A stretch of DNA of 36,119 nucleotides from a virus. Shown piece by piece: positions 21,686 to 36,119 of this stretch. The notes under the pieces are model-generated. The model did not search any database and was not told the DNA's origin. It worked only from the letters and a program-made list of their open reading frames with translations. How positions within the stretch are numbered: position 1 is the stretch's first letter; each line of letters starts with the position of its first letter. The position numbers and the translations under genes are program-made. The DNA lies in IMG/VR virus record IMGVR_UViG_3300025913_000957, positions 1 to 36,119 of that record; one strand, given 5' to 3'.

Positions 21686-23365
21686 CTACGCGAAAAACAT
21701 CCCGACTGTTTCTTGCTGATAGGTCATCGCTCGTCCCAATGCGTTCAGTAGGGCGACAATTCCGTCAATCTTTTCGCGAGACTTTTCTTTATCCGGCTTC
21801 ATCAAGCCTGTCGGGCCAACCTTGACGACTACGTTTCCCGCCATCCAACGCATGACCGGGTTGGCACCGTGGGCCAGCTCCTTGGTGAGCACCAGCTCTA
21901 GTAATCTCTTGAGCGGTGCGGTCATGGAGACGTCGCCTTGCCGGAAGTTCACCATGGTCATCCCGTCTGTCTGTAGCTGTGTGACGATCTGAGTTGCGTT
22001 GTATGGGTCAAAAGCGATTTCGAGAATCTGGTACTTCTCAGCGAGCTGGTTGACCTTGGCCCGTATGAAGTCGTAGTCAAGGATGTTGCCGTCGGTTAGT
22101 TGAAAAAGACCCTTGCGCTCCCAGACGTCGTAGGGAACCCGGTCACGTTGAACGCGCTGGGTGATGTTGTCCTTCGGCAGAAAGAAGTGAGGCAAAACAC
22201 GCCAGAGCTTGTCTTCTCCGTAGGGCGGGAACAGTAGTACAAATGCGCTAATGTCCTTTGTGGTTGAGAGGTCCAATCCGCCGAAGCAGGGCCTTCGTTT
22301 CAGCGCTTCGCCATTTACTGGGTCGCTACACTGGTCCCATGCCTCCATCGGCATCCAGGCGGTTATGGATTCGGTCCAAACTGAAAAGTGAAATCTCAGG
22401 GTTTCGTTAAGTTCAGCGGGACTCTCTTTGGCTTTCTTCGCCTGTGTGCGCAGGAAGTCAAGGGAAACCGCAACTCCTAAACTCGGATTTGCTTTGATCC
22501 AATTACGCTCTTCATCCCAGTGCCCAAGATCTTCAACGTCAAGTCCACACACCCAACCAAACCAAGAGTCGTCGGGTACTGAGCCATCGAGCACGCGCGT
22601 GGTGTATTCCCGCTGCTGATAGCAAATGCTATGCCGATCCCAACCGCTGTTGGTGATGGCGAACATCATCGAGTTCTGACGCTTGCCTAATGCCGTAGCA
22701 AAAGTCCGCCAGACTTCATTCGTGTCGTGCATGTGCAACTCGTCCAACACCACGAAAGAAGGCCGGGACGCCGCGAAAATACTCTTCTTATCCGCCGAAC
22801 ACGGTTCACACTTTGAAGCAGTCTCCGTGATGAAGAGGCTGCTTCGGAAGGCTCCGATGCGCCGCTTCAGGTGAGGGGATAGCCGGACCTGCTGGGCCGC
22901 TGTGTCGAACACTACCCTTGCTGCTTTGGCATCGGTGGCCGCTGTGTAGACCGACGCACCTTGCGTACTTATCAGCTCGTACAGACAGAGGGCGGAGGCC
23001 AGTGTGGATTTGAGGTTCCCTCGGGAAATCTCAACGTAGGCAAATTTGAACCGACGCAAACCGGTGTCGGCCCAAGACCAGCCGTACAGAATGTACAGCA
23101 GGGCGGCAATCCAAGGCTCTACGATCCACGGTTCACCGGCTCTCTCGTCTTCTACTCGCGGGACGAACTGCTCAATGAAGGCGATCACTCTGAGGCCCAT
23201 CTCAGGTGAGAACTTGATTGGCTTCTCGCGGAACGGACCTTCCGCTAAATCTCGAACATGACGCTCAATCGTTTGCCGAACCCATTTGCTGACAATCTGC
23301 TTCCCATTCAAGACATCAGCAATGTATTGCTCCGGCTTATTGCTTGGTTGTGACTTGCTGGTCAT
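21686..23365 (-). CDS. terL: Terminase large subunit (559 aa)
   Basis: This is the packaging motor. The ATPase has a Walker A-like SRGNLKST near residue 115 and a Walker B VVLDELH near 206. The nuclease half has GGLDLSTTKD (Asp about 363), then IAFDPYN and KIDGIVALLNALGRA, as in the phage terminase-1 family. I use the ATG at 23363-23365 (MTSKSQP), overlapping the small terminase by 29 bases; a TTG four codons earlier is possible. Neither has a clear ribosome site, which suggests coupling. An HNH gene upstream and a P27-type small subunit point to HK97/P27-like packaging. Confidence 0.93.
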   Translation of the reverse strand: MTSKSQPSNKPEQYIADVLNGKQIVSKWVRQTIERHVRDLAEGPFREKPIKFSPEMGLRVIAFIEQFVPRVEDERAGEPWIVEPWIAALLYILYGWSWADTGLRRFKFAYVEISRGNLKSTLASALCLYELISTQGASVYTAATDAKAARVVFDTAAQQVRLSPHLKRRIGAFRSSLFITETASKCEPCSADKKSIFAASRPSFVVLDELHMHDTNEVWRTFATALGKRQNSMMFAITNSGWDRHSICYQQREYTTRVLDGSVPDDSWFGWVCGLDVEDLGHWDEERNWIKANPSLGVAVSLDFLRTQAKKAKESPAELNETLRFHFSVWTESITAWMPMEAWDQCSDPVNGEALKRRPCFGGLDLSTTKDISAFVLLFPPYGEDKLWRVLPHFFLPKDNITQRVQRDRVPYDVWERKGLFQLTDGNILDYDFIRAKVNQLAEKYQILEIAFDPYNATQIVTQLQTDGMTMVNFRQGDVSMTAPLKRLLELVLTKELAHGANPVMRWMAGNVVVKVGPTGLMKPDKEKSREKIDGIVALLNALGRAMTYQQETVGMFFA

Positions 23366-23930
23366 CGGCACCGGCAATGCTGTTCATGAAGGAAACGAAC
23401 GGATCATCCTGCTTGCTGGGCGGGGCAACGCTGATACGGCTGCGGCTCGCCGGGGTCATGCCGAACTGCGAGCTGAATTTGTCTATCTGCGTCAGGCACT
23501 GATTGACCACCGCGATTGCTGGGTTGCTCTTTAGAACTCCGGGGACCGCGCTGGGCACCAGCAATCCGTGCTTCTTTACTTCGCGCTCGGCTTCTATCCA
23601 ACGCCCGTATGCACAGCAGTATGCGGCGAGTTCTGCCGCATCGACTCCCGTTAACAACCCAAGCTGTTCAAGCTCCACGCTGACTCTGCGCCACTCGCGC
23701 TTCGCGAGAGCGGTGAGGTGAGACGGGCAAACTGCTCTGCTGGCAGGCTTCGGTTCGTGTTTGTTAAGCGGACGATGGCCGGGATTGCCTTCAAGGATCT
23801 TGAGATTGGTGGGTTTGGGGAGTCTGCCGTTCATAAGAACTTGTTTGTTTCCAGGCGTTGGCTGTTTTCGCGTTTGCGTATACGTTGCGGACATGCGGTT
23901 GATCGGGATTGCTTGTTTACGGACAAACAC
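23337..23930 (-). CDS. terS: Terminase small subunit (P27 family)
   Basis: The segment GRLPKPTNLKILEGNPGHRP is the signature of P27-family small terminases, which recognise the packaging site. The helical remainder (LAKREWRRVSVELEQLGLLT, DAAELAAYCCAYGRW) is also typical. The start is uncertain. A GTG at 23928-23930 has AGGGA nearby. ATG at 23894 and ATG at 23834 (MNGRLPKPT, where family members usually begin) lack good ribosome sites. The gene ends inside the large subunit gene. Length and neighbours fit a complete gene. Confidence 0.88.
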   Translation of the reverse strand: MFVRKQAIPINRMSATYTQTRKQPTPGNKQVLMNGRLPKPTNLKILEGNPGHRPLNKHEPKPASRAVCPSHLTALAKREWRRVSVELEQLGLLTGVDAAELAAYCCAYGRWIEAEREVKKHGLLVPSAVPGVLKSNPAIAVVNQCLTQIDKFSSQFGMTPASRSRISVAPPSKQDDPFVSFMNSIAGADDQQVTTKQ

Positions 23931-23953: not shown

Positions 23954-24301
23954 CTATTCCCCGCGAGCAGTGCGACTAGAGTGATGGGGACGGCAGAGCG
24001 GCATGAGGTTGTCTTCCTGATACTTCGCTTCCGGATGCTCCGCCAGCTTGAGGATGTGGTGAAGCTCTTGAGCCACACTCACGACTCCTTCTGCTTGACA
24101 GTCTCTACAGAGCGGGAACCTTCTGAGGAAGTCGCGTCGGAAGTAGAACCACTGAGTGTCATATCCTCGGCTGCTCGGACTCCCACGGAACCTGTCATAC
24201 ATTCGCTCACTGCTCTGAGTCTGATGAGCGGAGCAGTAGCCATTCGCTACCAGTGCTCTACATCCTGTCTTCCTACACGGTCTCTTTGCTGCGTCGGGCA
24301 T
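23954..24301 (-). CDS. HNH endonuclease of the packaging module (115 aa)
   Basis: The HNH core is visible as ELHHILKLAEHPEAKYQEDN followed by LMPLCRPHHSSRT. Zinc-type cysteines lie at CRKTGCRALVANGYCSAH near the N-terminus and at LCRDCQ. In HK97-type phages an HNH protein encoded beside the terminase genes stimulates cohesive-end cleavage with the large terminase. The gene directly abuts its upstream neighbour (TGA then ATG) and precedes the small terminase by 23 bases. Length is normal for packaging HNH proteins. This favours cos-type packaging, though the cos site itself was not identified. Confidence 0.88.
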   Translation of the reverse strand: MPDAAKRPCRKTGCRALVANGYCSAHQTQSSERMYDRFRGSPSSRGYDTQWFYFRRDFLRRFPLCRDCQAEGVVSVAQELHHILKLAEHPEAKYQEDNLMPLCRPHHSSRTARGE

Positions 24302-24511
24302 TCATGGCTTCCGAGTGACCGCAAACTCGTTATTCCGATATCGGAATGGTCTGCCACTGAGCACTCCATCACCGCTCGTCATCCACTTGGCGAGCACTTC
24401 TGCCTGCTTCTCGCGAGGAGTGTCACGCAAGAGGATTTCAATCTGCTCCGCAGTAGTGCGAGGCTTCTCTTGGCCGGGATTGGGCGAAGCAGAATGTGCC
24501 TTCTTGGTCAA
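24302..24511 (-). CDS. Hypothetical protein (69 aa)
   Basis: This is a hydrophilic basic protein with a helical segment (TAEQIEILLRDTPREKQAEV) that resembles short phage proteins ahead of HNH genes, but I do not recognise a family. The start is TTG, overlapping the TGA of the preceding gene (TTGA), with only a weak GGGG further upstream. It abuts the HNH gene without a gap. It is probably translated by coupling. Confidence 0.55.
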   Translation of the reverse strand: MTKKAHSASPNPGQEKPRTTAEQIEILLRDTPREKQAEVLAKWMTSGDGVLSGRPFRYRNNEFAVTRKP

Positions 24512-24810
24512 TGTGAACGGGTGCCCCTACCCTTGATTGCACAACTATTCGCTTTTCCGCCGCTGCGCTTGGCTGAGATTGTCGTCCCTGCGGTGCGGAG
24601 CATCCTGCGAGCAGTAGATTCCGGGATGCCTAAAATATTTCCTGCGTCCTGGATTGTATGACCTTCAAGAATTAGCCTTGCCAGCTTCTTCGTCTTGCCT
24701 TTCAGTTCGCGAATCACATCGTTGGCTGCGGTCTCTGCGCTGAAGTCATAGTCTACAAACTCATAGACGTCCTCACGAAACTCGCGAGTGTCTCGGTCGT
24801 TGATCTTCAC
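24508..24810 (-). CDS. HTH protein, sigma-region-4-like (100 aa)
   Basis: Residues about 40-73 (KKLARLILEGHTIQDAGNIL, then GIPESTARRMLRTA) form a helix-turn-helix of the sigma-region-4 or LuxR type. It is preceded by an acidic segment and followed by a basic Gly/Lys/Arg tail. Such small proteins near the head of a late operon often act as late transcription regulators or as packaging-site DNA-binding proteins. It starts with GTG inside the previous stop (GTGA) and overlaps the next gene by TTGA, so it is translated within the block. Which role applies cannot be decided from sequence. Confidence 0.65.
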   Translation of the reverse strand: MKINDRDTREFREDVYEFVDYDFSAETAANDVIRELKGKTKKLARLILEGHTIQDAGNILGIPESTARRMLRTAGTTISAKRSGGKANSCAIKGRGTRSH

Positions 24811-25278: not shown

Positions 25279-25361
25279 CCGAGTGTGCTCCTAAAACAAC
25301 AATCGGAAGTTTGTTTTTGCTCCGGCACTAGCGATTTAATACTCGCTGTATACTTGCGCCC
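25279..25361. promoter_or_regulatory. Candidate promoter region for the late operon
   Basis: This 83-base spacer is richer in A/T than its surroundings and has -10-like hexamers in both directions: TATTAA on the minus strand (complement of 25335-25340 region) and TATACT at 25349-25354 on the plus strand. TATACT ends 7 bases before an ATG at 25362, the spacing of a leaderless transcript. No convincing -35 was found for either. Because the terminator at 25512-25547 blocks readthrough, the late operon needs a start here. Confidence 0.35.
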
Positions 25362-25466
25362 ATGATCCGACGTGTTCTAGCAGTTGCCTGTATCCTGTTT
25401 GCTCTCCTCAGCCTTTTGGCAACTCTTCAAACGTGGGAGCGTGGCCCATCTATATCGGTCTTTTGA
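25362..25466 (+). CDS. Possible 34-residue membrane peptide
   Basis: A short plus-strand frame encodes a basic start and one hydrophobic helix (MIRRVLAVACILFALLSLLA). In another frame from 25433 the DNA continues with a second hydrophobic helix (IYIGLLNLALFDVCAAVLLW), so a two-helix protein may be split by a frameshift. TATACT stands 7 bases before the ATG and there is no ribosome site, so translation would be leaderless. Small membrane peptides can be phage morons, but this may be chance. Confidence 0.3.
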   Translation: MIRRVLAVACILFALLSLLATLQTWERGPSISVF

Positions 25467-25511
25467 ATCTCGCGTTGTTTGACGTTTGCGCGGCTGTGCT
25501 CCTATGGAAAG

Positions 25512-25547
25512 CAAAAGAAAAACCCGGAGCCACGTGGGCGTCCGGGT
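25512..25547 (-). terminator. Intrinsic terminator ending the replication operon
   Basis: On the minus strand ACCCGGA, GCC-rich inner pairs and TCCGGGT form a strong GC-rich hairpin (25522-25547), followed at once by TTTTTCTTTTG. This is a textbook intrinsic terminator. It lies 28 bases after the stop of the 46-codon gene and 230 bases before the first late gene, separating replication and late transcription. Confidence 0.8.
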
Positions 25548-25574
25548 GTCTGAGGAATGTGAACTCTGATTTGT

Positions 25575-25715
25575 CTACCCGACTTTGTATGTGCCCTCAA
25601 AGCACTCGCGAAGCTCAGCCAAGCCGCAAGTACAGCGAGCACGGGGTGTGGTCAGGGTGCGGCAATGGTTGAGGTGCTGGCACTGTTCTAGAAATCGTTG
25701 AGCGGCGGTGAGCAT
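25575..25715 (-). CDS. Cys-rich 46-residue protein
   Basis: The frame MLTAAQRFLEQCQHLNHCRT, then CTCGLAELRECFEGTYKVG, has five cysteines (about residues 12, 18, 28, 30 and 38) and a helix-like amphipathic start. This is a composition unlike random DNA and similar in style to small conserved phage proteins with a CxCG core. It ends 28 bases before an excellent terminator on the same strand, which supports it as the last gene of the replication transcript. The ribosome site is weak (GAG 13 bases upstream). Role unknown; metal binding is possible. Confidence 0.5.
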   Translation of the reverse strand: MLTAAQRFLEQCQHLNHCRTLTTPRARCTCGLAELRECFEGTYKVG

Positions 25716-25812
25716 ACAAACTGATACTCGCAAGGCACGTGCGCGGCGGGTTCTGTCAGTGTTTTAAGAGAGGTCGGAAAACACTTGCTAGGCCATTTTT
25801 TCCATATACTCT

Positions 25813-26048
25813 GCCCCCCCAAAAATCTCATTAGGCTTTTACCCAGCCTAACGGGAGCCTAATAGAGCTACCTAATCCAGAAATGAGAAGACCTAACTAT
25901 AAGAAATATATATATATAATTTTCTTTTTTATTGGGGGGCACACTATATCGGGAAAATGGCCTAATCCGACTCGGGTCAGAGAAAAGTGACCGGATTCGG
26001 AGCCTAATCGTAGGCTGTTTAGAAAGCGGAGCCTAACAGAAAGCCTAA
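25813..26048. other. Candidate replication origin: CCTAA repeats around an AT-rich core
   Basis: Eight direct CCTAA copies (starting 25847, 25858, 25871, 25892, 25961, 26003, 26032 and 26044) and one inverted copy (25831) lie in about 220 bases. Chance would give less than one. Several extend to GGAGCCTAAY. They flank a 31-base stretch of almost pure A/T (25901-25931). Inverted G/C runs, GCCCCCCCAA (25813-25822) and TTGGGGGGC (25932-25940), bracket the left half. Iterons plus an unwinding element directly beyond the 3' end of a primase-ATPase gene are the classical layout of a phage or plasmid origin. No DnaA box was identified with confidence. Confidence 0.65.
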
Positions 26049-26060
26049 TCGGGAAAGCCC

Positions 26061-28592
26061 TCAAACGTCTCTCAGAGACTTGACGAGAACCCACACCGGA
26101 GTTTTCACAGCGATGCTTTCCTTCTGAGTTTTCGGGTCCCACTTTCCGATTGAACCGTCGTCTAGCATTGCCTTCTTTGTCTGATTGACGAGCGACGCAC
26201 CGAAGCGATACGCACCGCAGCTCTGCGCCATCGTTGGCCAGTGAATCAGACGATGCGCAATCTTGGGATCATCACAGACCTGACTTGGCTGTGGCGCTCT
26301 GGGGAACACAACCTTGCCGCTCTTCTGGTCCTGATACACCTTCATGATCTTGCGTTGTAGACGCTCATAGCACTTCGCTGGCTTGTCTTCCTCGCTGCGA
26401 CTGCTGCGGAACTTCCGACGAATCTTGAGCTGCCACTCACAGAACGCCATTGCGTGGTCTAGTGAGTTCTGGGAAATTTCCGGTTCGCCATTGAAGGACG
26501 ACTGGATCAAAGCAATACGACGCGCCAGATTGCCCGCCCGGTTCCAAACATCAGAGCAGAGCAGGCTCTTGCCCCAGTCGTTCGTGATCTTGTAGGCGCT
26601 CTTTGGCACCACGCAGCCGCAGGGTTTCGTTTTAGGCTTCGGGTATAACTCGAACCCTTCAAAGTCTAATGCTGTGTCGGTGTACCCGAAGATTAGTCGA
26701 TCTAGAAAGCCTGAGTTGGAGTCTTTGCCGAACAGCTCCGCAAAGTCTTCCTCAGTCTTGACGGCTAGACCACCGAGCAGACTTGGCTCGCCGCTACACG
26801 TGAGTTCTTTGCCGACTGGAGAGTACTTGAAGGACTTCTCATAGAACATCGTGCAGAGCAGTTCGCCTAGGATGGAACCTTCAAGGCGCATCAGCTTCAG
26901 CAAGCTCTTGAACTCATCAGCGACGAAGACTTTGGTGTCTCCCTGTTCGCCAATGGCGTTGATGAGACCGGGAGCCGACACTGGAAGTCCCGGGTAGACG
27001 TTCGGCTCTGCTAGACCAATACTCCTTTTTGCTGCGCTCATCACCGTGCTCTTACCCCCGGACACTCCCCCAATCAGGGCGCAGTACAGGTTTGTGTTCT
27101 CCGGCCATGGTGCGCGGTGCCATACGTCCGGCAGCGCAGCAGCACAGGTCAGCAATGATGGGTAGACCCAACCCAACGGGAGGTTCGACTTGGTCAGCTC
27201 CTCCGCAATCCTGCCCAATTCGCCATGGAGAGCATTCTCATCGAATTTGAGATCGTCGGCGGTCTCAGACTCTTCGTTCTCTTCCTCTGCCATCTGTGGC
27301 TCAGCAGTATCCTCTTCAGCTTCATCGTCGTCGAGCACTGCCACGCTGCTGTGGTGGTCATAGTCCGCCGGAAGCAGCAAACGACGCGCACGATTACCTA
27401 AACCAGCGAGGTCATCTTCTCCCACATGCTGCTTCAACCATGCGTGCTCTTCCGGTGTGAGCGGACTATCGGGGCTTCTCGTCTCGACGGCTGGCTCTGG
27501 CTTCTGCTCTGTCTCCGCATCGGGTTCAGCAATTTCTTCCCACGCCCATTCGCTATCGTCGTCTTCCTTCTCTAGGTACACAGGACCCTCGTACCGCTCG
27601 TATCCCGCTTCGTGTAGATGACGCAGAACATCCCCCATTGACCATTCCGACGCAGGGCAACTGCCGTGGTGACACTTGAAGCCCAGCCCCTCCTTCAGAA
27701 TCAAGCGAGCCGGAGCGCCAGCGTGTGGTTTGCCCCAGCCGGGACATTCAGACAGATAGAAGACACCATCCTGTGAGCCGGGATACACGTTGAAGTCGTA
27801 GTGACGGCAGAAGGCTTCAAAATCAAATTCCGGGTCCATATCACGAGGAACCGCCACGGACTCCCGAGCATCCTGCGGAAGCAGATTCACAATCGAGTTC
27901 AGATCATCTAGCGATAGCACATCCGGTTGCTCGGGGAGCGTGATGATGTCAGACCGACGCCACGGACGACTAGGCTTCTCCGCTCCTTTACGCGCCCAGG
28001 TGCCTGCCAGCTTTGTAATCCTGCTTGGGTTCCAGACGACGGTGTCAATGTGGGCAGCTTCCAGATGTTTGAATGTGTGGGCCAAAGCGCGAAGCACATT
28101 TGACACCAGTACACGGTTCTCAGCAGTGTTCTCAAGATCGAGCTTGTAGAGCAGATGGTATCCGTTTCCCGAGTCTACGACGCCCGGTTTGGGCCAGCGG
28201 TGGTCACGGCGAAGCGTGCGCTCGACCTCAACCACCATGTCCCAACAAGCCTTCTTTTCATCGTCAGACGAATTGTCTTCGCCTTCTGGCTTGTGGGTGT
28301 CAAAGTCAATCAGCAGATTACGGTAGTGAGTGATTTGGTTATCGTTCACTGCGCTGTGATCGGGCATCACAAGCTCGTCCGTGAGCGGATTGAGTGTGAT
28401 GTAGACAGCTTTAGAAGTGGGACGACAGCTGGCCTTATATGCGGCTAGAGCGGCTTTGTCTGGGCTCTCGTAGAGAGCAGGTCGCATACCCTTGTCCGAA
28501 GTCAGCAGCCGCATCTCAAACGTGCCAGTAGGGTGAAGCCACGTGATGAACTTCGTGATGTCCTGAACGATTTGTTCCTGACTCTTCTCCAT
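26061..28592 (-). CDS. Replication protein: AEP-type primase fused to P-loop ATPase (843 aa)
   Basis: The N-terminal third looks like an archaeo-eukaryotic-type primase: LLIDFDTH (Asp96 and Asp98), SGNGYHLLY (141-149) and HIDTVVWNPSRITKLAGT (181-198). A Cys/His knot follows (Cys283, then KCHHGSC at 306-312). An acidic linker, about 340-450, leads to an ATPase with Walker A GGVSGGKST (508-516) and Walker B VFVADEF (555-561), similar to the DUF3987-type replicative ATPases of mobile elements. It would prime and perhaps unwind DNA at the adjacent CCTAA-rich origin. It is followed by that origin and the terminator. It could also be an origin-binding initiator. Confidence 0.82.
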   Translation of the reverse strand: MEKSQEQIVQDITKFITWLHPTGTFEMRLLTSDKGMRPALYESPDKAALAAYKASCRPTSKAVYITLNPLTDELVMPDHSAVNDNQITHYRNLLIDFDTHKPEGEDNSSDDEKKACWDMVVEVERTLRRDHRWPKPGVVDSGNGYHLLYKLDLENTAENRVLVSNVLRALAHTFKHLEAAHIDTVVWNPSRITKLAGTWARKGAEKPSRPWRRSDIITLPEQPDVLSLDDLNSIVNLLPQDARESVAVPRDMDPEFDFEAFCRHYDFNVYPGSQDGVFYLSECPGWGKPHAGAPARLILKEGLGFKCHHGSCPASEWSMGDVLRHLHEAGYERYEGPVYLEKEDDDSEWAWEEIAEPDAETEQKPEPAVETRSPDSPLTPEEHAWLKQHVGEDDLAGLGNRARRLLLPADYDHHSSVAVLDDDEAEEDTAEPQMAEEENEESETADDLKFDENALHGELGRIAEELTKSNLPLGWVYPSLLTCAAALPDVWHRAPWPENTNLYCALIGGVSGGKSTVMSAAKRSIGLAEPNVYPGLPVSAPGLINAIGEQGDTKVFVADEFKSLLKLMRLEGSILGELLCTMFYEKSFKYSPVGKELTCSGEPSLLGGLAVKTEEDFAELFGKDSNSGFLDRLIFGYTDTALDFEGFELYPKPKTKPCGCVVPKSAYKITNDWGKSLLCSDVWNRAGNLARRIALIQSSFNGEPEISQNSLDHAMAFCEWQLKIRRKFRSSRSEEDKPAKCYERLQRKIMKVYQDQKSGKVVFPRAPQPSQVCDDPKIAHRLIHWPTMAQSCGAYRFGASLVNQTKKAMLDDGSIGKWDPKTQKESIAVKTPVWVLVKSLRDV

Positions 28593-30664: not shown

Positions 30665-30826
30665 GTGCGCCAACGTCCCGTGAAGCGCCATATCGTGCTA
30701 CGGTTCCGCAGTTGTCAGCAGACTGATGGCACAGTGCGTCTCACCACCATCAAGCGCGATGTCATTCTTCCCCGAGTACCCGACATCGTGATTCGGAAAG
30801 CAAAGCGAATTGTTGTGGCGGTCTAA
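30665..30826 (+). CDS. Possible small basic protein upstream of the NusG-like gene (53 aa)
   Basis: A GTG-started frame (30665, or 30680 for 48 residues) encodes a very basic, strand-rich protein (VKRHIVLRFRSCQQTDGTVR, ending KRIVVAV). Its TAA overlaps the next ATG as TAATG, the arrangement of a translationally coupled pair. The NusG-like gene has no ribosome site of its own, so coupling would explain its translation. A weak GAGG is 11-12 bases ahead of the first GTG. No family is recognised. Confidence 0.45.
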   Translation: MRQRPVKRHIVLRFRSCQQTDGTVRLTTIKRDVILPRVPDIVIRKAKRIVVAV

Positions 30827-31959
30827 TGCTTCTGTATGCCGGTGACAGGTCACTACTCGTTGACTTGCCTTGGTATTGCGCTGAACTCGCCAACTACGCT
30901 TCTGGGCGCTCTACTTTCGTGAGCACCATCAAACGTCTCGCTCGGCATCTTGGGAGTTTCCCAGTCGAGGTTTACATTCCCCAAGATCTGTCTGATGCAA
31001 ACAAGACCTTGGCTCTGCGTACAGGAAACCTCATCTTCATTCGAGCGGAGACCTTGAGCAAAGTGAAGTCGCTCACAGCCGTTGCCGGAGTTCAGCACCT
31101 CGTCACCAAAGATGGAAATCCGAACTATCGGACTGCGCTCCGGATTGACGACGACTTTGTTCAGACCATGCTCGCTCAGGAGCAGAAGGAGAGAGCCGAA
31201 AGAGCAGCAAGCATCAACCTGGGATCGTGGGTCCGCATAATCGACGGGACCATGCGCGATTTACACGGGACGGTGACAGCACTTGGCGGAGGTACCGCTG
31301 TGGTCACCGTGAAGATGCTGACGCGCACTTTGCTCTGCGAGGAACCGCTCGGGAACCTTCTGCCGATGGATCATGTTCCGCAAAGCCAGAGAGTCTGGTT
31401 CTACTGCGACACCGTCAGAGAGTTTGATGAGAGTCGCAACTCCGAAAGCCCGTCTCTGATTGGTCTGAAGAACTATCACGACTCCGGGTCCGCAGCTTCG
31501 TTGAAGATGTGGGCCAATCTTAGCCTTGAGAGCCGCGAGCGTCATCGTCAGAAAACGCAAGCTGCTATGGCAAAGAACTGGGCGGGGGCTGGGCCGCGTC
31601 GTTCAACGATGATTGCCGCGATCCGCAAGGGGCGCGAAGCCTACTACTCTTCCATGGGCAAGCACCGACCAGACGACAGGACGCAAGCAAAGCAATGGTA
31701 TCGACGCACGCCAGAACAGCAAGCTGCGCATACAGCCAAGATGGTGGCAGGTATCAAACGGTTCTGGGCGACTGCTTCACCTGAGAGGAAGGCAGAGATA
31801 TCTGCTATGCATCGTGAGGTTCTGCGTTTGCGCACACCAGAGGAGCGCAAAGCTATCGGAGTGAAATCTGCGGAGACTTCGAGACGGAAGAAATCTGAAA
31901 AAGCCAGTCTCGCAGCGGAACTCACAGCCAACTCGCTAAAAATATTTTTACGAACGTAA
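30826..31959 (+). CDS. NusG-like NGN-KOW protein fused to NUMOD3-like repeats (377 aa)
   Basis: Residues about 14-118 read as a NusG N-terminal (NGN) domain: an early Trp-Tyr, then VEVYIPQ, GNLIFIRAE and AVAGVQHLVTKDGNP. Residues 131-180 are a clear KOW domain (GSWVRIIDGTMRDLHGTVTA, then NLLPM). The C-terminal 150 residues are basic, with repeated units of about 20 residues beginning S/T-P-E (TPEQQAAH, SPERKAEI, TPEERKAI, earlier SLESRERH), as in NUMOD3 DNA-binding repeats, but no HNH or GIY-YIG nuclease follows. NusG paralogues bind RNA polymerase and promote processivity or antitermination. The repeats may tether it to DNA. It heads the plus-strand early operon. Confidence 0.72.
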   Translation: MLLYAGDRSLLVDLPWYCAELANYASGRSTFVSTIKRLARHLGSFPVEVYIPQDLSDANKTLALRTGNLIFIRAETLSKVKSLTAVAGVQHLVTKDGNPNYRTALRIDDDFVQTMLAQEQKERAERAASINLGSWVRIIDGTMRDLHGTVTALGGGTAVVTVKMLTRTLLCEEPLGNLLPMDHVPQSQRVWFYCDTVREFDESRNSESPSLIGLKNYHDSGSAASLKMWANLSLESRERHRQKTQAAMAKNWAGAGPRRSTMIAAIRKGREAYYSSMGKHRPDDRTQAKQWYRRTPEQQAAHTAKMVAGIKRFWATASPERKAEISAMHREVLRLRTPEERKAIGVKSAETSRRKKSEKASLAAELTANSLKIFLRT

Positions 31960-34877: not shown

Positions 34878-36119
34878 TTAAGCAACTCCTACTAATTCAG
34901 GTCGTGGACGTACAATGCTCCCGAACATCTTGTTGGCCTGATTGCGCGAAGTCGCACTCCGACTGTCAGCCGCCTGCAAGTAAATCAAGGTTGTCTCGAT
35001 ATCGCTGTGTCCAAGCCATGTTTGAATCGTGCGCACAGGAACACCAGCTTCGTGGTGCAAGGTTGCGAACGTCTTTCTAAATTTGTGCAGCTCCCAGTCC
35101 TTGCAGACCGGATTTGTCTTGCAGGATTTTCCGACCTTGTTTTTACAGTGACCACAATTCAAGCCAGCTTCCAGAGCCAGAGTCTTCAACCTCCGAAGCA
35201 TATGGCCGTCCGGACCACCCTGCCCGTTGGTGAAGATCAGCTTGCCCGTGGGGTCCAGTTTGCGACGCTCTTTGAGCATATCTAACAGGTCATCGGCCAG
35301 AGTGATCTCGCGCTCTTCCGAGTCTTTGGGCTTGAACCCGAACTCAGGATGATCACAGACTTTGAAGGTGCCGTCCTCGAATCGCACATCTCGCCAGCAG
35401 GCATACTGCACTTCTTTCTCTCGGCAACCTGTTCCGAGGAAGAACGCAAACAGAGTCCGCTCCTCAGTGTCAGCATCAGCCAACAACATGGCAACCTGAT
35501 TGGGACTGTAGGCACTGACCTTCTTCTGCGTGTACTTGGGCCACTCCGCATTGGGAAGCAGCTTGGGAACCTTCACAGCTTTCAGGAACGTGTCCACAGT
35601 ACAAATCCTGTTGTAGACAGTCCTGTCTCCCAGACCTCTCTCCTTTTGGTCGCGGATGAAGGTGAACATGTCAGCACGAGTCAGCTTCTCAAGGTACTGC
35701 TTTCCGCAAACTGATTGGAACTGACGCAGGACATACTCGTAGCTGTGCGCCGTCCTCAGGTTGCCGAGGGCAGCCTTCTCATCGAGGTAGGTGTTGATGG
35801 CTTCATCAAGCGACCTCCAACCCTCCGGTTCGGCTTCGTCCTCTACATGGAGACCCGTTGCTTTCGCGGCGAGCTCCGCGGACTTCCGACGCTGTGCCTG
35901 CACAGCAACGTCGAGCTGATCACCCACATCCTTGAAGACCAGCTTATTGCCTTGCTTGTACCTCAAGGAATAGGTCGAGCCAGGGAAGTGTGTCGGCACT
36001 CCCTGATACACAGCCCACTGGTGTTTGATCTTGTTTTTGTTTGAGACAGGTTTGAGGTATGAGCGTTTTCCGTCTGAGGTTTTCACTCTCAGCAGAAGAC
36101 TGACTGTCAGATTGGCCAT
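34878..36119 (-). CDS. int: Tyrosine-recombinase integrase with Cys-rich insert (413 aa)
   Basis: The catalytic set is complete: Arg233 (GTGCREKEV), a Lys in the FKPKDSEER hairpin (about 263-265), His345 and Arg348 (ELHKFRKT), His371 (WLGHSD) and Tyr380 (TTLIYLQ). The core-binding domain is at about 100-195 and an N-terminal arm-binding part precedes it. Between the Lys hairpin and the HxxR box lies CGHC-x7-C-x5-C (Cys322, 325, 333 and 339), a probable zinc knuckle. The ATG coincides with the end of the window, so the gene is complete, but its promoter and any adjacent attachment site lie outside. It would integrate and excise the prophage. Confidence 0.93.
   Translation of the reverse strand: MANLTVSLLLRVKTSDGKRSYLKPVSNKNKIKHQWAVYQGVPTHFPGSTYSLRYKQGNKLVFKDVGDQLDVAVQAQRRKSAELAAKATGLHVEDEAEPEGWRSLDEAINTYLDEKAALGNLRTAHSYEYVLRQFQSVCGKQYLEKLTRADMFTFIRDQKERGLGDRTVYNRICTVDTFLKAVKVPKLLPNAEWPKYTQKKVSAYSPNQVAMLLADADTEERTLFAFFLGTGCREKEVQYACWRDVRFEDGTFKVCDHPEFGFKPKDSEEREITLADDLLDMLKERRKLDPTGKLIFTNGQGGPDGHMLRRLKTLALEAGLNCGHCKNKVGKSCKTNPVCKDWELHKFRKTFATLHHEAGVPVRTIQTWLGHSDIETTLIYLQAADSRSATSRNQANKMFGSIVRPRPELVGVA

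Follow-up and report, generated by a model that had tools for sequence, protein, structure and literature searches.

The repeat array that lies behind the rep gene of virus record IMGVR_UViG_3300025913_000957 is, to judge from sequence comparison, very probably an iteron replication origin of a phage or prophage, which the C-terminal half of the Rep protein would bind. The whole record, 36,119 bases long, was analysed and is called the window here. An earlier note on this DNA had proposed an iteron-type origin tied to a primase-ATPase gene, and the comparisons below speak for that proposal. It is the best supported reading because repeat clusters are enriched next to rep in related loci, because the side on which they lie follows the protein tree, and because the same layout has been published for phage-inducible chromosomal islands (PICIs).

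The array sits between the HNH-terminase side and the minus-strand rep gene, in a gap of ~780 bp that is upstream of the minus-strand HNH-terminase genes. The genes concerned are these.

21686-23377, minus strand: terminase large subunit gene (context)
23337-23930, minus strand: terminase small subunit gene (context)
23954-24301, minus strand: HNH endonuclease gene, on the far side of the array from rep
26061-28592, minus strand: rep gene (843 codons), the putative initiator

The virion genes in the record include those for an HK97-type portal, prohead protease and major capsid protein as well as the terminase subunits, and a tyrosine integrase is encoded at 34878-36119 (minus strand). No ParA/ParB-like match appeared among those ORFs that were scanned with Pfam and PHROGs, a part of the total, and the 36,119-base record has no terminal direct repeat of 10-299 bp. 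Both record ends coincide exactly with ORF ends (an ORF at 1-276 and the integrase at 34878-36119, both minus), a pattern that a trimmed provirus call would give. An ORF of 100 aa (24508-24810, minus), located between the HNH gene and the array, has similarity that is HTH/sigma-region-4-like or terminase-small-like. A 377-aa ORF at 30826-31959 (plus), divergent to the rep side, has weak similarity to UpxY/RfaH/NusG-type antiterminators over residues ~65-165.

The repeat array and its A/T core

The word CCTAA occurs nine times within 25831-26048, a span of 218 bp, with eight copies on the plus strand and one on the minus strand. This agrees with the nine repeats in about 220 bp, eight in the same orientation, that had been counted before. 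They account for 9 of the 32 CCTAA matches of the whole window. The words fall into two groups, five at 25831-25896 and four at 25961-26048, with an A/T core between them. Only 12 bp separate the last copy from the stop codon of rep; the array does abut the 3' end of the replication gene, as had been claimed. The features are listed in the order of the record.

25789-25825, no strand: left arm of a 37-nt inverted repeat (81% complementary), includes a C run
25829-25853, minus strand: terminator-like hairpin made of the inverted iteron and its neighbour, then a T run (consensus match only)
25831-25835, minus strand: single inverted iteron (AAAGCCTAATGAG), word match
25847-25851, plus strand: iteron CCTAA (CCAGCCTAACGGG), word match
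25858-25862, plus strand: iteron CCTAA (GGAGCCTAATAGA), word match
25871-25875, plus strand: iteron CCTAA (GCTACCTAATCCA), word match
25892-25896, plus strand: iteron CCTAA (AAGACCTAACTAT), word match
25898-25928, no strand: A/T core, 93.5% A/T, presumed unwinding element
25928-25964, no strand: right arm of the 37-nt inverted repeat (81% complementary), includes a G run
25961-25965, plus strand: iteron CCTAA (ATGGCCTAATCCG), at the outer end of the right inverted-repeat arm
26003-26007, plus strand: iteron CCTAA (GGAGCCTAATCGT), word match
26032-26036, plus strand: iteron CCTAA (GGAGCCTAACAGA), word match
26044-26048, plus strand: iteron CCTAA (AAAGCCTAATCGG), 12 bp from the rep stop codon

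The repeat unit is longer than CCTAA. It mostly reads (A/G)GCCTAA(T/C), with GCCTAA in seven of the nine copies, and on the rep strand the word is TTAGGC. The earlier note had let its reading hang on the density of CCTAA elsewhere. The equal density that would have counted against it is not seen: outside the array, no 218-bp stretch of the record holds more than two copies, and none of 300 doublet-preserving shuffles of the window put more than four copies into 218 bp, a number reached three times. When all 5-mers with at least three different letters were scanned for clustering, CCTAA gave the strongest cluster of the window, with a score of 12.1 against a best of 7.9 among 60 shuffles. The spacings had been described as helical-turn-like. 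Those of 11, 13, 21 and 42 bp are indeed present, but so are 69, 29 and 12 bp, and a phasing of the iterons at 10.5 bp was rejected as not significant (R 0.29, p ~0.5). The array, which is irregularly spaced, is absent from the output of Tandem Repeats Finder. An Rfam search gave no match. GC skew, which had been suggested as a check, shows no turn at ~26 kb in 1-kb steps, a profile confounded by gene orientation.

The core at 25898-25928 has the highest A/T content of any 31-bp stretch in the record, the next best outside the region being 0.74; likewise 25894-25933 is the highest of any 40-bp stretch, with the next best outside at 0.70. Thus the 31-bp A/T core of the earlier note holds up as the A/T peak of the record, although it is 93.5% rather than wholly A/T and its longest pure run is only 20 bp (25904-25923). 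The inverted G/C runs noted before are present too, and are better described as parts of the 37-nt inverted repeat. In the hairpin at 25829-25853, the T run that follows the stem is on the strand transcribed for rep. The hairpin may end the rep transcript, and one element may serve both as an iteron pair and as a terminator.

The Rep protein

Rep consists of an N-terminal archaeo-eukaryotic (AEP) primase domain (~residues 20-335), an acidic linker, and a diverged DUF3987-like P-loop ATPase with a C-terminal region (~450-843). AEP primases have catalytic DxD and sxH motifs. Over residues ~20-335, Rep is 29-33% identical to aligned AEP-type proteins from a Bacteroides phage, from a faecal phage contig and from a Methanomethylovorans plasmid, and an acidic pair and a DSGNG-H motif are invariant across Rep and these proteins. 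In A1, the catalytic DxD and sxH motifs read IDFD and DSGNGYH, and D75, D77, S120 and H125 are invariant in the numbering of the aligned fragment; the wording sxH for motif II of AEP primases is that used in the sections of PMC5862659 available to us.

The C-terminal half contains a P-loop, read from the sequence as GGVSGGKS. Its match to DUF3987 (PF13148) is below the cut-off, at 18.3 bits against 27, and is confined to residues 483-525. The AlphaFold model of this half has a pLDDT of 34.7, too low to use. No described plasmid initiator family in Pfam or NCBIfam matches the 843-aa Rep, which sets it apart from the Rep proteins of classical iteron plasmids. Direct searching found no close relatives of the whole Rep, but only matches to its N-terminal part. 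The only relative detected for the ATPase half is encoded on a contig of an Acidobacteria MAG (L119), at 28% identity. No more were found among 199 genomes of the same phylum, in viral_contigs, or in 294 genomes of the phylum of another locus (L122), the last being a search run without a positive control. On the Acidobacteria contig, the ATPase and the primase are encoded by two genes whose order is reversed, the ATPase gene coming first. The start of that contig (1-240) is taken up by a near-perfect 15-bp tandem array (CTTACCCGTCTCGCG) together with an A/T tract, immediately ahead of the ATPase gene.

We propose that Rep would bind the (A/G)GCCTAA iterons, most likely via the part that follows the ATPase domain, and would assemble on the iteron groups at 25831-25896 and 25961-26048. 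It would then melt the A/T core at 25898-25928 between the two groups. The ATPase domain would unwind the DNA, the N-terminal AEP domain would prime, and a host polymerase would presumably extend after priming. Since the origin would be located behind the stop codon, it and the C-terminal half of Rep could move as a unit.

Arrays beside related rep genes

The AEP alignment search supplied the best 80 of 110 viral loci plus 35 genome loci. Among 116 loci examined, rep is a closed ORF of 550 aa or more in 106 (105 fetched plus the window). An array was counted where a 6-mer cluster had E<1e-3. In these 106 loci, the 600 bp before rep hold 22 clusters (0.354/kb) and the 600 bp after it hold 12 (0.194/kb, window included); inside the gene there are 4 in the last 600 bp and 6 in the rest, and elsewhere there are 54 (0.053/kb). 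Repeat arrays are several-fold enriched within 600 bp on either side of rep in the AEP family. The counts take the loci as independent, and L044/L060/L084 and L123/L129 are near relatives. At this strict threshold, 69 of the 106 loci have no cluster near rep. Two further tests used 102 loci, four near-copies having been dropped. Clusters occupy 6 of 24 rep-flanking non-coding gaps of at least 150 bp versus 16 of 254 other such gaps (Fisher p 0.006), and in 25 loci, where 10.3 are expected, the most A/T-rich 40-mer is no more than 600 bp away from an end of rep.

The position of the array, 5' or 3', follows the Rep protein tree. The tree was made of 108 AEP domains, and loci were labelled UP or DOWN for an array 5' or 3' of rep and LAST for one in the last 600 bp of the gene. 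With labels set by hand, all 18 UP rows are in one half of the tree, and all 13 DOWN and all 3 LAST rows are in the other. The three labels together need 3 changes on the tree versus 13.1 in label shuffles. Labels set mechanically give 18 up, 0 down in the first half and 12 down, 4 last, 3 up in the second, where the exceptions with an upstream cluster are L026, L052 and L086. Also in the DOWN half are L095, L096, L098 and L099, in which an array ends ~530-570 bp upstream and its midpoint falls outside the 600-bp rule. The window is on a long end branch (1.84), and its place in the tree is therefore unsure. In L083 (10299-10549), and also in L080 and L066, the final 500 bp of the rep ORF contain the repeat cluster, which would place the presumed origin within coding sequence.

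Several arrays that resemble that of the window start no more than 12 bp from the rep stop. They are found in L044/L060/L084 (CTACCC), L076 (GGTTAC) and L088 (AGCCGG), and in each there are two repeat groups around an A/T-rich stretch, as in the window, over a span of ~275-290 bp versus 218 bp. Arrays of looser or different layout lie behind rep in L132 (GCAACA), L058 and L021 (GTCACA) and L123/L129 (AACCTG). Leaving aside L122 and L094, which lack an array, the A/T-richest 40-mer of the array region ranks in the top 1% of the locus in 9 of 11 array loci; the exceptions are L084 at 1.4% and L132 at 6%, which is weak. The order Rep, array, HNH can also be read in L044/L060/L084/L076. The motors differ, being VapE-like in L044, DUF5906 in L076 and L088, AAA_25 in L132 and DUF3987-like in the window.

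One set of these loci appears to record a natural swap. Over the first 250 columns, the L084 protein is 42-56% identical to that of L044; beyond about column 400 the figure is mostly 90-100%, with one block at 80%. Against L076, it is 56-74% identical in the first 400 columns and 14-30% after them. The iteron word of L084, CTACCC, is that of L044, while that of L076 is GGTTAC. When the DNA of the four arrays is aligned, conserved stretches such as AACCATGCGG are seen between the repeats, and CTACCC stands at several places where L076 has GTAACC. As read from these alignments, the repeat word and the C-terminal half of Rep switch together. This fits recognition of the iterons by the C-terminal half, but it is no proof, since that half and the array are physically adjacent and one crossover carries both.

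The word of the window itself was sought more widely. A pattern of three AGCCTAA in viral_contigs returned at least 120 stretches, of which 80 were examined as loci. At least five GCCTAA per 300 bp were present in 29 of the 80, with spacings that are all multiples of 3 in 24 of the 29, and neither the A1 nor the A2 profile detected a Rep relative beside the word in any of the 80 loci. TerL is encoded in the same record as a Rep relative in L021, L044 and L084, and no phrog_9 TerL was found in 9 of 16 records of Rep relatives, several of them fragments and some cellular genomes. The 15 records behind the TerL relatives L002-L016, many of them fragments, gave no Rep relatives.

The position of the array upstream of the HNH-terminase genes, with the HTH/sigma-like ORF at 24508-24810 between, would also suit an operator or regulatory cluster, at which a repressor or activator bound to CCTAA controls that operon; moreover, initiators can act as autoregulators too. 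We regard this as unlikely. The clusters of the relatives stay with rep on either side of it, the side follows the Rep tree, no promoter of the sigma-70-like type was found in 25279-26100, and an operator with as many as nine sites, placed about the record's strongest A/T peak, would be unusual. The terminase small and large subunit genes are ~2-4 kb away, near enough to raise the idea that the array is the packaging signal (cos or pac) for that terminase. This is very improbable, given that clusters are attached to rep across the AEP family, including in records in which no phrog_9 TerL was found. Plasmid iteron arrays serve as centromeres too, and a partition centromere or incompatibility region in place of an origin deserves slightly less credit again, as no ParA/ParB-like match was seen among the ORFs scanned and an integrase is present. 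Chance or a low-complexity artefact is hardly credible; the A/T tract is of low complexity, but shuffles never come near the observed CCTAA cluster.

Comparison with known systems

A PICI is a satellite element without a full virion gene set of its own. The record encodes its own terminase, HK97-type portal, protease and major capsid protein, and for this reason it is not a PICI, nor by gene content a satellite. The likeness is in the origin. As described in the available parts of PMC6092414 and PMC7581432, PICI/SaPI origins follow the initiator gene directly on its 3' side, their short iterons form two sets that flank an A/T-rich region, and primase and initiator are sometimes fused. The array of the window is likewise directly 3' of rep, and its five words, A/T core and four words amount to two iteron sets flanking an A/T region. 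The PICI/SaPI initiator binds its iterons via a C-terminal domain. The likeness is drawn from this layout and not from a SaPI-type Rep sequence, and the window differs in having an ATPase that is DUF3987-like at a sub-threshold level. Comparison supports the origin reading well, and the array would work like a PICI/SaPI origin. The suggestion that the origin is more like that of a plasmid or phage-plasmid was half right: the closest layout described is that of phage satellites, and the record encodes an integrase, with no partition gene seen in the ORFs that were scanned.

Other systems share parts of the arrangement. The alpha protein of bacteriophage P4 joins primase and helicase parts in one polypeptide and binds origin repeats with a winged helix, but its primase is of the TOPRIM type, according to the portions of PMC4234260 available; the Rep of the window also joins primase and ATPase parts beside repeats, whereas its primase aligns with AEPs. 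In the archaeal plasmid pRN1, the same source places the origin downstream of orf904 as a large stem-loop without iterons. ORF904 thus resembles Rep as a primase-helicase protein with an origin just downstream of its gene, and the difference is between a stem-loop there and iterons here. Lambda-type origins have their iterons inside the initiator gene, and the array of the window is outside the ORF, as the earlier note had rightly stressed. In the PrimPol-PV1 supergroup, AEPs are fused to VirE, DUF927 or DUF3987 ATPases that are predicted to be new helicases, a fusion like that of Rep (PMC5862659); the word iteron is absent from the main text of that paper, as far as the text was available. 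The open-licence literature yielded no report of an origin layout of this kind in AEP phages, and the accessible portions of PMC7145576 and PMC10803314 contain nothing closer to it.

A wider proposal is tentative, and we hold it with slightly more doubt than trust. AEP-primase phages and prophages may widely use satellite-style origins, in which the exchangeable unit would be the ATPase, the C-terminal binding region and the iteron array. By exchanging such a cassette while keeping a conserved primase in front of it, phages would gain a new origin specificity in one crossover. The window would then be a remote member of the group, having TTAGGC as its private word and a DUF3987-like motor. The natural domain swaps among L044, L084 and L076 are material for locating the iteron-reading part of Rep. 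The array would also be a predicted substrate for DUF3987-like ATPases, which have so far been predicted helicases in the available text of PMC5862659. If the origin reading is true, the satellite-type origin layout would extend to phages that have their own virion genes and a different motor family.
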